From the NCBI RefSeq assembly GCF_023256255.1, contig NZ_JAGDXD010000039.1, positions 1 to 47,043 of the forward strand: a DNA stretch of 47,043 nt, given 5' to 3'. Origin of the DNA: Caldivirga sp. (GTDB taxonomy: Archaea > Thermoproteota > Thermoprotei > Thermoproteales > Thermocladiaceae). Shown piece after piece: positions 10,332 to 15,808 of this stretch (position 1 is the stretch's first letter; each line of letters opens with the position of its first letter). A program made the translations under genes and the position numbers. The notes beneath the pieces were generated by a model. That model saw nothing but the letters and a program-made list of their open reading frames with translations, ran no database searches and was not told the DNA's origin.

Positions 10332-11108
10332 GTGGTTGCTTACGTTGCCGTAATGGTTGGTGTATCATTACTGAGGAATGTAATTAATACTGGTTTCATT
10401 AGTAAGAAGTATGAGGTAATAATTAAAAACGCCTTAGATGGCGATCTTGATTCCGATAGGAAACTTGGGGTTACTGGGTTTAACGCTGATTTACTTAATG
10501 GTTTAAGGGAGTTCATTAAAAGCAACCCTAAGGGGTGTTGCGCCGAATTAGGTACATTAATAGCCCTTAGCGGTAGTATTAAGGATCATATTGAAGTTGA
10601 GTTCTTCTACACCGACACTAAGACCACGTGGTTATCAGCCTTAGCATTATCCAATTGCCTAAGTGAATGCGGTGTTGCTCAAGGGATTAACGTGATTGGT
10701 AGTACCCAGGTTCCATTGTTTGGTGGTAATGATCTGGATGAGGGCTTGGCATCATTGGTTAATGTTGTCGGTAGGAAATTGGCCAGTAGGGTTTCTGGAG
10801 GTGATGATGCCTACGTAGCCTTCACCGGTGGCACTAAGATTGAGGCTGTCTTAGTATCAATGGTTGCTTGGTTAATTGGCGCTAGGCCTATTTACCTAAT
10901 GGAGAGGGGGCCATTAATAGTGTTGCCTAGGCTTCCAGTGGACTTGAATAATAGTGTAATTAATGTTCTTTGTTCAGCCGTTAAGGGCAGCATTAATACT
11001 AGTGATATGCAGGACTTAATTAGGCTTGGGTTAATTAACATTAATAGGAATGGTTACATGGTACCTAAGTGGATTAATGCTTTACTTAAGGTTAAGGGCT
11101 TATGTTAA
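10332..11108 (+). CDS. CARF protein, APE2256/Crn1-like ring nuclease
   Basis: A 258-residue protein with a CARF fold of the APE2256 (PF09651/TIGR02619) type. Seen: an N-terminal strand and loop GVSLLRN (Ser12), CCAELGTLIAL, FFYTDTKTTWLSALAL, the signature AFTGGTKIEAVL (Lys169), and ERGPLIVLPRLPVD. Ser12 and Lys169 fall where Sulfolobus Crn1 enzymes use a serine near 11 and a lysine near 168 to cut cyclic tetra-adenylate. The likely job is to bind and degrade cA4, switching off type III CRISPR signalling. A short C-terminal helical part (about 212-258) follows. No effector nuclease domain is fused. It converges on HerA with a 4-base overlap. The start is GTG. Confidence 0.8.
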   Translation: MVAYVAVMVGVSLLRNVINTGFISKKYEVIIKNALDGDLDSDRKLGVTGFNADLLNGLREFIKSNPKGCCAELGTLIALSGSIKDHIEVEFFYTDTKTTWLSALALSNCLSECGVAQGINVIGSTQVPLFGGNDLDEGLASLVNVVGRKLASRVSGGDDAYVAFTGGTKIEAVLVSMVAWLIGARPIYLMERGPLIVLPRLPVDLNNSVINVLCSAVKGSINTSDMQDLIRLGLININRNGYMVPKWINALLKVKGLC

Positions 11109-12853
11109 CCCACGTGGTAGGCCATTGGGTTTACCTTAATGTAAAGTGGGTACTTGTAGGTGAATGACTTAACGTAGGCTACACCAGCATCAGCAACGGT
11201 GAGGAATCTCCTCTCTGATTGAGGCACATTAAGCCTCTCAAGGACTCTCTCATCGCTCCTAAGCACTATTTTCGTGTTAGTTAACTGCAATACGGCGTCA
11301 TTAAGGTCATCGGGAATATGGGTTGCGAAAACTACTGAAATACCCCTACCTCTACCCAGCCTAGTTAACCTGGTTAAATGTCTCTCAAGCATTGACCTCT
11401 CATCCTCACTCCTGGCCTGGGGGAAGAATAAGTGAGCCTCATCAACCAGTATGACGGCTAACCTACCCCTATTCCTAAGGTGTTCAGGACCCATGAAGCC
11501 GTAAACCTTATCCAACACCCTGTAAACGAATATCCTTTGGGCCACTGGGGGTAAGCCAACTAGGTGAAGCACCACGTAGCCTGGTTCAAGTATTTTACCG
11601 TAGCTTGGTTCATGAACCTTAAACTCAACCCCACCTTTACTATAGGCTACATCAACTATACCGGATTCATCAACGGCAAGTATGGTCCTCAATATGTTCT
11701 CAAGCGTACTCGTGTGTATTCCTAAATCCCTTGCAACAACCTCATAGTTAAGTAACAGCCTACCGCTCATTTGAACATCACTTGGGCTTGTTAAGTACTG
11801 GAAAATCCTATTGAAGGTTAATTCACCCCTTAACCTCCTCATGACCTCCCTAATGATTCTACCGTAGAACATTCTAGCTTGATCAGTTAACATTCCCGTA
11901 ACCTCATGAACCCTATAAAGTATACTCCTGGTGCTTAAAGCCCAGGGAATGAGTGTTACGTTAACCTTCTTATCCTCAAGGGTTACGTTAACCTCATTAA
12001 TAATCACTGTTCCCCCACTCTTTAATACACGGCCCTTAATCCTAATTCTTAATTTACCTAGCTTTAATCCAAAGGCCTTAAAGACATCATTAAGGTACTG
12101 CCTAGTCATCTTAAGCGCCATTGACTTAGCTAAGGCTCTAGCATCCCCTCCCCTAAGGTTTCTCTTAACCCAATTCCTCATCATGGGTATGAGGACCTTC
12201 ACTGGTACATTATTGAAGACTAGGTGATTATAATGGCCAACAGTGTCCAAAGCCATAACAGTTACGTCACCGTAATTAGTGAGGAGACTTAGGGCAATGT
12301 TCTTCAGTAACGTAGTTTTACCACTGCCTGTGGTTCCAACAACCAGCACGTGGTGGTTCAAGGCCTCTAGAGGTAACTTAACGTAATTACCCTTAACCTC
12401 ATGGCCATTTGGTAAGGCTAAGCTACCTAATTCTACGCCACCACTGGGTAATGAAAGCATGGTGGCTACTTCACCCTCCCTCGGTATCCTAACCATTGAG
12501 TGGATCCTGGGTGGTGTACTGGGTGGTTTACAATCATCCTTAATGCACTCCGCCACTAACTCAAGCTTAATGAACCTGGGAATGTACCTTACCCCCATTG
12601 CCAACTCCTGCTGGAGGGAGAGTATGGGTGTTCTTGCTATTGAGTAAATGTCCTCAACCTTAGACTCAGTTATCCTGGCTAAGTAATTAACTTCACCACT
12701 TGACTCAACGACAAGGTACTCACCCACTGGGAAATCCATATCGCACTCGGTAATCATGTAGACCTCCGAGCCCTCTAGGGAAACTGCGCTAGCCATTAAT
12801 CTAGTTATGAGTCCCACGTACGTCTTACAGTCGATGTTCTCCATGCTACTCAC
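11105..12853 (-). CDS. herA: HerA-type hexameric DNA translocase
   Basis: A 582-residue HerA/FtsK-superfamily ATPase. The N-terminal 125 residues fit the HAS-barrel, Walker A GTTGSGKT is at 173-180, the Walker B VDEAH at 470-474, and an arginine-finger region RLTRLGRGRG near 495. A basic and beta-rich insert lies around residues 230-330. HerA pumps duplex DNA through a hexamer and works with the NurA nuclease in end resection; homologues also serve antiviral defence. The gene overlaps the upstream nurA by 8 bases. Mre11 and Rad50, the usual companions in archaea, are absent here, so this may be a dedicated or second pair. Confidence 0.9.
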   Translation of the reverse strand: MSSMENIDCKTYVGLITRLMASAVSLEGSEVYMITECDMDFPVGEYLVVESSGEVNYLARITESKVEDIYSIARTPILSLQQELAMGVRYIPRFIKLELVAECIKDDCKPPSTPPRIHSMVRIPREGEVATMLSLPSGGVELGSLALPNGHEVKGNYVKLPLEALNHHVLVVGTTGSGKTTLLKNIALSLLTNYGDVTVMALDTVGHYNHLVFNNVPVKVLIPMMRNWVKRNLRGGDARALAKSMALKMTRQYLNDVFKAFGLKLGKLRIRIKGRVLKSGGTVIINEVNVTLEDKKVNVTLIPWALSTRSILYRVHEVTGMLTDQARMFYGRIIREVMRRLRGELTFNRIFQYLTSPSDVQMSGRLLLNYEVVARDLGIHTSTLENILRTILAVDESGIVDVAYSKGGVEFKVHEPSYGKILEPGYVVLHLVGLPPVAQRIFVYRVLDKVYGFMGPEHLRNRGRLAVILVDEAHLFFPQARSEDERSMLERHLTRLTRLGRGRGISVVFATHIPDDLNDAVLQLTNTKIVLRSDERVLERLNVPQSERRFLTVADAGVAYVKSFTYKYPLYIKVNPMAYHVG

Positions 12854-13844
12854 CCTCCCTCATTACCCTATTCAATTCCTCCAAGCCCTCGTAGGTTAAC
12901 CTCAATGGTGACAATGATGCAAGTAGCCTAGTTAAGCTTACGTTAAGCCTCCTGGATAACCTATCAGCTATGCTTACTGGTATTGGTACACCATCCATAC
13001 CCATGTAGACTGTTAAACGCATAGCCCCCTCCTCAGCTAACCCCTCATTAATTGCCTCAACCCTAATCACGTTAACCTCCTTACCAACCCTGGAGGCTAC
13101 GTACCAGGCGTACTTGGTGTGTTCATTAATGGTTATTTCAAGGGGACCAATCATTGCTGTGAAGAACCTCCTATCACCAAACTGCCTAACAGTCTCATTC
13201 TTAATTAAAGTATCATCATCAACACTAAAGCCCTTACACCTGGAGTAGTAGGTTGATTGACTAATCCTCTTAACAACTCCAACTGCCATAACCCCATCAA
13301 CAGCATTCACCCTACGCCTAATGAAGTCCTCATATAAGTCGGCGTAAGGATTACCCACCATTGTTAATACCCTAGGCGTAGGGAATATTGGCCCATCAAT
13401 AAGTAGTAAGGAATCCCTAACCCCCATTCCCCTATACGCTTCAGTTAACTTAACCTCAACCTCAGTCCTAACCTCATCCCTAACAGCCTCCTCATTATAA
13501 GAACCATCAAAAACCCTACCCAATACACTGGATTTAAGCAAAACATACTCCCCCGCATCACTTTCTAAACCACTTACTGAACTCTCATCAACCTTAAACC
13601 TAAGCCTAAGCCCAAGCCAACGAGCCTTAACACCACCGGGAACAAGCAAATTCTCCTCACCAACCAATGCACCAGTGACCACGTATACGTCAGCATTCTC
13701 AAACCTAAGCATGGAGGATTGGGAATCAAGGCCAAAGAGGCTCACAGGCCCAGCAGGGGCCTCATCAATAAGCCTAACCTCCAACTCCCCACACTCAACA
13801 CCAACACCAGAGTCAGAAAGGCTCACTGGACATAAAATCACCAA
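12846..13844 (-). CDS. nurA: NurA 5'-3' nuclease, HerA partner
   Basis: A 332-residue NurA-family nuclease with an RNase H-like fold. Metal ligands and motifs are recognisable: GLDSQSS (Asp40; usual form DGS.R), LLLIDGP (Asp150), and GVVKR (Lys192-Arg193). The C-terminal helical region (about 290-332) probably binds HerA. The start appears to be TTG at 13844 or the adjacent GTG, preceded by GAGGGGTAGGG; a TGA just upstream excludes a longer N-terminus. It forms a tightly coupled nurA-herA operon facing away from the CRISPR array. Confidence 0.85.
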   Translation of the reverse strand: MVILCPVSLSDSGVGVECGELEVRLIDEAPAGPVSLFGLDSQSSMLRFENADVYVVTGALVGEENLLVPGGVKARWLGLRLRFKVDESSVSGLESDAGEYVLLKSSVLGRVFDGSYNEEAVRDEVRTEVEVKLTEAYRGMGVRDSLLLIDGPIFPTPRVLTMVGNPYADLYEDFIRRRVNAVDGVMAVGVVKRISQSTYYSRCKGFSVDDDTLIKNETVRQFGDRRFFTAMIGPLEITINEHTKYAWYVASRVGKEVNVIRVEAINEGLAEEGAMRLTVYMGMDGVPIPVSIADRLSRRLNVSLTRLLASLSPLRLTYEGLEELNRVMREGE

Positions 13845-14130: not shown

Positions 14131-14292
14131 GAAACTCCCTAAAGGGAGTAGAAGGATGTTGCTTGCATCATCCGATGGCTGTATGGATGAAACAACTTCG
14201 AAGCTCCCTAATTAGGGAGTAGAAGGACAACACGATTAACAAAACGACCAACCCACGTATTAAATTCAGAAGCTCCCTAAAGGGAGTAGAAT
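14131..14292 (+). CRISPR. CRISPR mini-array, 3 repeats and 2 spacers
   Basis: Three near-identical repeats are at 14131-14154, 14200-14225 and 14269-14292, with spacers of 45 and 43 bases. The core is CTCCCTAAAGGGAG, a short palindrome, followed by TAGAAG, resembling the 24-base, GAAAG-ending repeats of Thermoproteales. Repeat 2 has AATTAG in place of AAAG in the loop (2 extra bases). Repeat 3 ends in T instead of G, as often seen at the distal end. Repeat polarity and the upstream TATA element indicate transcription on the plus strand with an 8-base tag of AGTAGAAG. No cas genes are in the window, so processing must be in trans. Confidence 0.85.
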
Positions 14293-14478
14293 GGTTTTAT
14301 GAGCTGTATAGGGTTTACAGGTTTTTAACGTGGTGAGAGCGTTATTGAGGGCCCGGTAAGGGAATTTGAAGATAACCTCCTCCCGTCTTAAGGGGGTGGG
14401 GTTTTTATGCTGGGGTCTCAAGACTAGGTTCACCCACCGAGGGCACCCAACCCAGAAGCTAAATATTTAAAACCCGTC

Positions 14479-14637: not shown

Positions 14638-14645
14638 TTTATAAA
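14638..14645 (+). promoter_or_regulatory. TATA element of C/D sRNA
   Basis: TTTATAAA is placed 22-29 bases before box C (14667), consistent with an independent promoter for the small RNA. Confidence 0.5.
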
Positions 14646-14662
14646 TAATTGAAGGTATGAGT

Positions 14663-14722
14663 GATTGTGATGATGCGTGGCAGCAACTGAACAGTGAGGA
14701 GCCTTGTCTCACGCTGATTATT
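14663..14722 (+). ncRNA. C/D box sRNA (2'-O-methylation guide)
   Basis: All four boxes are present with canonical spacing. Box C GTGATGA is at 14667-14673, a 13-base guide follows, D' CTGA is at 14687-14690, then three bases, C' GTGAGGA at 14694-14700, a 13-base guide, and D CTGA at 14714-14717. The D guide contains TGTCTCACG, complementary to CGUGAGACA, a conserved segment of 23S rRNA just 3' of the peptidyl transferase centre. The fifth-base rule predicts methylation of the A in CGUGA. The D' guide (GTGGCAGCAA) target was not identified. Terminal stem pairing is weak. A TATA element precedes it. Confidence 0.8.
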
Positions 14723-14839: not shown

Positions 14840-15808
14840 TTAATCATGCTCACTGGAGTATACTAAGTATTTAATGCCATTGAAGGTCACTTCCTTAGTT
14901 AAGCTCCTCACAGAATCTAGGATTAATGGGTCTAGTTTATTTCTCTCAAGAACATTCATCACCTGCTCCACTGTCATTGGTTGAACTCTAAGAATGCTTA
15001 GTATACTGTTTAATGGGTCACTCTTATCTATGTGGAATTCCCCGCTCTCCATGTAATCTATGATGAATACCTTATCACTATTCACATACCTTGATAGGTT
15101 TTTCGCAAACGTGATTAATGCGCCTGATTCAGGTGGCTTAACCCATGACTCAGCTGGGGGTCTTGTTGGTATCATCACGTACACCCTATCTGGCTTATAC
15201 CTACGTAATGCCTCCCCAATACGCCTAGCCTCATCCTCATTATCATTCACACCCCGTACTAGCATGACTTCGCTCCATATTTGCCCGTGGAAAACTTCAC
15301 GAAACTTCTCAATGCCTTCAATGAACCTTTCGAAGGTTACTTCCCTATGTGGCCTATTAATAAGCCTAAACACTCTCTCATTACCTGCATCAGTGCTTAC
15401 CTTCACTACATCTAGGTTACTTAACCAATACCTAACTCTTTCATCAGTCAACTTAGCCCCATTAGTGAGTATTGCCAATGGCTTATCCTGGTTTTCCCTA
15501 GCCCACTTTATTAATTCCCCTAAGCCTGCGTAAAGTGTTGGTTCTCCATCACCAATGAACGTTAAGTAATCGTAATCCCTAGACTTAACGGCAGTCTCCA
15601 TTTCCTTAATTATATCCTCAGGTGGGCTAAACATTCTTAGATCATTAATGAGGTACCTAGTCCTCCCAAGTTGGCAATATATGCAGTTAAAGTTGCAGTA
15701 CTTAAGTGGAACAACATTAACACCCATTGACCTCCCTAATCTACGTGATGGTACAGGGCCAAAGACGTAGTGAAACACTAGTCCCCACTGAGTTAAACTA
15801 ATCATCAC
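14840..15808 (-). CDS. Radical SAM protein (COG0731-like)
   Basis: A 322-residue radical SAM enzyme. The N-terminal VFGPVPSRRLGRSMGVN leads directly into the cluster motif CNFNCIYC (CX3CX2C), followed by QLGRTRYL. GDGEPTLY is the usual GGE-type SAM-binding strand (near residue 97). This subgroup of Fe-S oxidoreductases is widespread in archaea and bacteria without an established reaction. The C-terminal 60 residues form a small helical, winged-helix-like domain (IDKSDPLNSILSILRVQPMT). It stands alone between the sRNA and lysA. The ATG at 15808 leaves a 14-residue N-terminal extension that may be shorter in reality. Confidence 0.85.
   Translation of the reverse strand: MMISLTQWGLVFHYVFGPVPSRRLGRSMGVNVVPLKYCNFNCIYCQLGRTRYLINDLRMFSPPEDIIKEMETAVKSRDYDYLTFIGDGEPTLYAGLGELIKWARENQDKPLAILTNGAKLTDERVRYWLSNLDVVKVSTDAGNERVFRLINRPHREVTFERFIEGIEKFREVFHGQIWSEVMLVRGVNDNEDEARRIGEALRRYKPDRVYVMIPTRPPAESWVKPPESGALITFAKNLSRYVNSDKVFIIDYMESGEFHIDKSDPLNSILSILRVQPMTVEQVMNVLERNKLDPLILDSVRSLTKEVTFNGIKYLVYSSEHD

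Follow-up and report, generated by a model that had tools for sequence, protein, structure and literature searches.

C/D box sRNAs are common in hyperthermophilic archaea. In these RNAs, as described by Dennis 2015 (PMC4644070) and Breuer et al. 2021 (PMC7994747), helices 90-93 of the 23S rRNA are a methylation hotspot, and a guide to one residue of the hotspot, U2552, is predicted in five of the species studied (PMC4644070; PMC7994747). Dennis 2015 (PMC4644070) further describes a double-guide rule, according to which both targets of a double guide lie within 100 nt. The element that we describe here, found in a stretch of 47,043 bases from the genome of a hot-spring archaeon of the genus Caldivirga (the window), is, judged by its sequence, a conserved C/D box sRNA and an ordinary member of this known RNA class.

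The window carries a canonical archaeal C/D box sRNA on the plus strand at positions 14667-14717, measuring 51 nt from box C to box D. Box C (GTGATGA, 14667-14673) is followed by a D' guide of 13 nt (TGCGTGGCAGCAA, 14674-14686) and by box D' (CTGA, 14687-14690). After a linker of 3 nt come box C' (GTGAGGA, 14694-14700), a D guide of 13 nt (GCCTTGTCTCACG, 14701-14713) and box D (CTGA, 14714-14717), all on the same strand. The order and span are those of archaeal C/D box sRNAs (RTGATGA, CTGA, an RTGATGA-like box and CTGA within 50-70 nt), with box C' departing from RTGATGA at one base. The original prediction had named a C/D box sRNA with these boxes and 13-base guides, and the strict layout indeed occurs once in the window, whereas 100 first-order Markov copies of the window contain 0.0 on average. 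The TATA element that it named is present as a TATA-like sequence, TTTATAAATA, read at 14638-14647 on the plus strand, about 20 nt 5' of the C box, and A/T-rich TATA-like stretches are also seen 5' of several homologues. Besides the strict layout, the gene call draws on these homologues and on a sequence model, R1, both of which are described below.

The locus was likewise correctly placed in empty DNA beside a CRISPR array, being intergenic between a NurA-like ORF (12846-13844) and a radical-SAM ORF (14840-15808). The window is one contig (C39) of a 2.07-Mb metagenome-assembled genome of 71 contigs that is 97% complete. Three CRISPR-like repeats, with the core CTCCCTAAAGGGAGTAGAA or close to it and a spacing of 67-71 nt, lie at 14131-14298, and near them are a gene with a Cas_APE2256 domain (10332-11108) and HerA/NurA-like genes (11105-13844). 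A link between the sRNA and these repeats was sought at the locus, and none was seen beyond adjacency.

Conservation is what makes the sRNA call safe, since the strength of the guide matches alone is not rare. The sRNA is 92-96% identical to that of the window in all four other Caldivirga genomes, with the 150-nt flanks at 15-43%. When 61 genomes were searched by a blastn-type method with a 141-base query, strong matches were confined to about 50-65 bases, that is, to the sRNA itself, and were also found in three genomes of the same family as the window (G011, G014 and G017). Of 398 Thermoproteota genomes, 21 contained a pattern that joins TGANGA, the 8-base complement of the 23S sequence GUGAGACA and CTGA: 19 belong to the window's family, one (G026) to another family of the same order and one (G385) to the same class. 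A reversed control pattern matched none of the 398. The forward pattern also occurred at 35 loci of a collection of named genomes, 16 of them in Thermoproteota and 19 scattered across bacteria, the latter being taken as chance matches. Model R1, for which 19 of the 21 pattern-matched sRNAs served as input, gave the window sRNA 54.2 bits and detected a homologue in 22 of the 25 genomes of the family, namely the 19 used in its building and three new ones (G006, G012 and G024), together with weaker homologues in Pyrobaculum and its allies. In the homologues of G010, G018 and G019 (L087, L090 and L091) the stretch from the D' guide to box C' is some 8-12 nt longer than in the others.

To assign targets we used the rRNAs of relatives, because neither a 16S nor a 23S gene is present in the window's own assembly; positions are numbered as in E. 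coli K-12 rrlB (23S) and rrsB (16S). Between the D guide and 23S C2594-G2604 there are nine Watson-Crick pairs, one G.U pair and a further Watson-Crick pair, so that against the 23S of another Caldivirga (G001) positions 1-11 show zero mismatches, with the sole G.U at position 10. The match of 9 bases that had been predicted, CGUGAGACA, is found at 2594-2602, and the adenosine selected by the N+5 rule is A2598 of helix 93. It lies four bases from A2602 of the peptidyl transferase centre, which agrees with the predicted location, as far as can be read from the relatives' 23S. The segment had been called universally conserved; it is not quite universal, as it reads CGCGAGACA in two Pyrobaculum-side genomes (G036 and G038). 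In the 23S of Caldivirga sp. MU80 (G003, L062), helix 93 contains an insert of 46 nt right after CGTGAGACAG, i.e. after position 10 of the duplex; this is presumably an archaeal rRNA intron, with the guide target abutting the exon junction.

For a guide of such composition, the strength of the 23S match stands out only slightly: 169 of 3000 shuffled D guides scored at least as well against 16S plus 23S. Family-wide pairing is more telling of the target. All 21 D guides form at least 9 base pairs at A2598, 8 of these being imposed by the search pattern, and the pairing extends from N+1 to N+11 in Caldivirga and from N+2 to N+10 or more in the others (N+2 to N+9 being required by the pattern). 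When D sites were ranked by their duplex energy against each genome's own rRNA locus, A2598 came first in 7 of the 11 genomes. In G001 it comes second to another rRNA-locus site by 0.4 kcal/mol (-17.8 vs -18.2 kcal/mol), in G006 it falls outside the best four sites, and in G038 it is second to A2577, a site that ranks third in G036; G006 and the Pyrobaculum-side relatives do not fit A2598 well. With the 23S and the 16S of close relatives, the D guide is complementary over at least 10 nt and Watson-Crick paired at N+5. We predict 23S A2598 as the main target of the D guide and as a likely methylation site.

The D' guide, in turn, most likely addresses the A-loop of helix 92. This proposed site is 46 nt upstream of the A2598 site, a distance in keeping with the double-guide rule (Dennis 2015, PMC4644070). 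When each D' guide was scored against the 23S of its own genome, the lowest-energy duplex was at the A-loop in 11 of 11; with the rRNA of G001 as common reference, 18 of the 21 sRNAs pair best at the A-loop. In that comparison the sRNA of G014 prefers another site, with the A-loop next, and those of G026 and G385, which have unrelated D' guides, find their best duplex slightly upstream of the A-loop in 23S. Vulcanisaeta-type sRNAs form nine perfect pairs with N+5 at U2552, if box D' is read as starting with the invariant C of the alignment. In G015 (sRNA L093, 23S L065), the A-loop carries CCCGU in place of CCCGC, matched by A in place of G in the guide, so that nine Watson-Crick pairs are kept; in a scan against G001, the A-loop is no longer the site preferred by that guide. 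By its sequence, this is a change of the compensatory type.

A clear D' complementarity near the D target is found in Vulcanisaeta and in the Pyrobaculum-side relatives. The Caldivirga D' guide has one extra base, and a bulge divides its A-loop duplex into six pairs and three pairs. Shuffled D' guides did as well as the window's in 67 of 200 cases, and another 23S site, which is mismatched at N+5 and lies some 120 nt downstream of where the D guide pairs, comes within 0.3 kcal/mol. Since its own duplex is bulged, no better than shuffles and nearly tied with a second site, the target given for the window's D' guide is drawn from the relatives, and on their evidence the D' guide (14674-14686) most likely addresses U2552 of the A-loop. 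The bulge, the shuffles and the near-equal, N+5-mismatched alternative would all suit a D' guide that is an orphan, or that acts only as a chaperone or anchor, with a complementarity decayed from the form seen in Vulcanisaeta and Pyrobaculum. We regard this as possible, though less probable than a functional guide, because all five Caldivirga genomes, and the neighbouring genus as well, retain the core of the D' guide, and the sRNA is the only candidate guide to U2552 seen in Caldivirga: a search of four Caldivirga genomes with a single pattern, designed for another sRNA-like site that would pair with U2552 without a bulge, gave a match in none of them. A tRNA target for the D' guide was also considered. 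The complement of its core, GCTGCCACG, has 13 exact matches in G000 and G001, of which two are the sRNA genes and the other 11 lie at loci without a tRNA gene, and the candidate was rejected on this search of exact matches; tRNA targets paired with wobble or mismatch may exist.

The D guide has an alternative site, which the original prediction overlooked; that prediction also gave the D' guide no target. Its bases N+3 to N+12 pair with 16S 323-332 (UGAGACAAGG) through 10 Watson-Crick pairs, placing A325 at N+5, and 97 of 3000 shuffled D guides scored at least as well against 16S plus 23S. This ten-base match is present in 7 of the 21 sRNAs (the five of Caldivirga and those of G014 and G017); the other 14 pair with 16S only over the 7 bases common to both sites. 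One may imagine that 23S A2598 and 16S A325 are both methylated by one RNP, whose single D guide would act on the two subunits, since each duplex has at least 10 pairs with the N+5 adenosine paired. We think this rather unlikely, as the dual pairing is kept in only a third of the homologues (7/21) and may be a chance effect of three extra matching bases beside the shared heptamer.

That A325 is the main target, the 23S match being a by-product of the shared UGAGACA, is improbable. Its contiguous Watson-Crick pairing is longer (10 pairs, compared with 9 followed by a G.U and one more in 23S), and the form of the guide that fits 16S occurs in three genera (7/398 genomes). Against it, the 14 sRNAs with only seven pairs to 16S have at least 9 to 23S, and in the genomes with this 23S-only form the 16S guide pattern picked out no additional sRNA. 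Moreover, N+1 is G in all seven of the 16S-fitting forms and pairs with 23S C2594, not with 16S, and the D' partner guide aims at nearby 23S. The 16S site was accordingly set aside as the true target, not being kept by 14 of the 21 related guides. On the pairing across the family and the energy ranking, we retain A2598 as the main target, with A325 possibly a second.

At the gathering score, Rfam gave zero matches at the sRNA locus; at a relaxed threshold, the best 9 of 10 matches were C/D box sRNA families over 14663-14720, all of them well below their gathering scores. That the box-like motifs came together by chance, or are what is left of a decayed gene, can hardly be credited, even with a score under every Rfam cut-off, as the conservation limited to the element, together with the zero matches of the control, refutes a chance reading.

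The machinery for such an RNA is encoded in the genome, as judged by family-level matches to L7Ae, Nop5 and fibrillarin: a Fibrillarin-family protein (C1:545-1225, E 6.5e-100), a Nop-domain protein (C69:7970-8653, E 4.3e-69) and three genes of the Ribosomal_L7Ae family. Taken as a whole, the reading of the element as an archaeal C/D box sRNA of the double-guide type, with the proposed D and D' targets, is very probable. The sRNA would be transcribed from its own TATA promoter; L7Ae would bind the two k-turns, C/D and C'/D', and Nop5 and fibrillarin would then be loaded. Placed on helix 93 (2594-2604), the D guide would direct the 2'-O-methylation of A2598, and the D' guide, placed on the A-loop, would direct methylation of U2552 or at least anchor the RNA there. 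The RNA would bracket the peptidyl transferase centre during assembly of the large subunit.

The Pyrobaculum-side relatives resemble the window sRNA in one guide and depart from it in the other. Four of them (G036, G038, G039 and G041; L160-L163) have the D' guide core of the window sRNA, GGGCAGC, and in G036 and G038, as checked on their own 23S, the D' guide aims at the A-loop. Unlike that of the window, the D guides of G036, G038 and G039 fit 23S 2573-2582 (CGUGAGAUGG, selecting A2577) better than 2594-2602, of which the former is a near-repeat lying 21 nt upstream; the D boxes of these three are degenerate and the register of the D guide was judged by eye, which makes the assignment tentative. 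A2577 corresponds to a known methylated adenosine of yeast. One may speculate that an RNA bracketing the peptidyl transferase centre (A-loop plus helix 93) exists across the Thermoproteales, in which the D guide hopped between A2577 in Pyrobaculum and A2598 in Caldivirga and Vulcanisaeta, and that Caldivirga gained 16S A325 in addition, so as to mark both subunits; taken in full, this scenario is unlikely.

A2598, next to A2602, is a likely added methylation site in the helix 90-93 hotspot of hyperthermophilic archaea, and the sRNA family offers a compact natural series in which guide and target co-vary while a guide RNA retains or changes the ribosomal sites that it addresses. Apart from these two points, the element belongs to routine ribosome maturation. 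A literature search for A2598 methylation in 23S returned no relevant report, and one for 23S position 2577 with box sRNA returned nothing; the main text of Dennis 2015 (PMC4644070) names neither alignment position 2872 nor 2851, to which A2598 and A2577 convert. The A2598 site may already have been published, and the retargeting of the D guide between A2577 and A2598 may be new.

Compared with described systems, the window sRNA shares box layout and length with the Rfam families sR35, sR2 and snoPyro_CD, the guides being different, and scores 20.3, 19.9 and 19.8 bits against their respective cut-offs of 60, 42 and 45. The seven species of Dennis 2015, as given in its text, do not include Caldivirga (PMC4644070). 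A close counterpart among them is sR10 of Nanoarchaeum equitans (PMC4644070), whose D' guide is directed to alignment position U2826, which is E. coli U2552 by the offset of that paper, and whose D guide is directed to helix 93, where it selects E. coli 2606, eight nt 3' of A2598; the two RNAs are likened by their target positions alone. Like the window sRNA, the known archaeal C/D sRNAs (PMC4644070; PMC7994747) have four boxes and two guides of 10-13 nt that obey the N+5 rule; their targets, like those predicted here, lie within 100 nt in a hotspot of 23S helices 90-93. Between them and the window sRNA we see no difference in kind.
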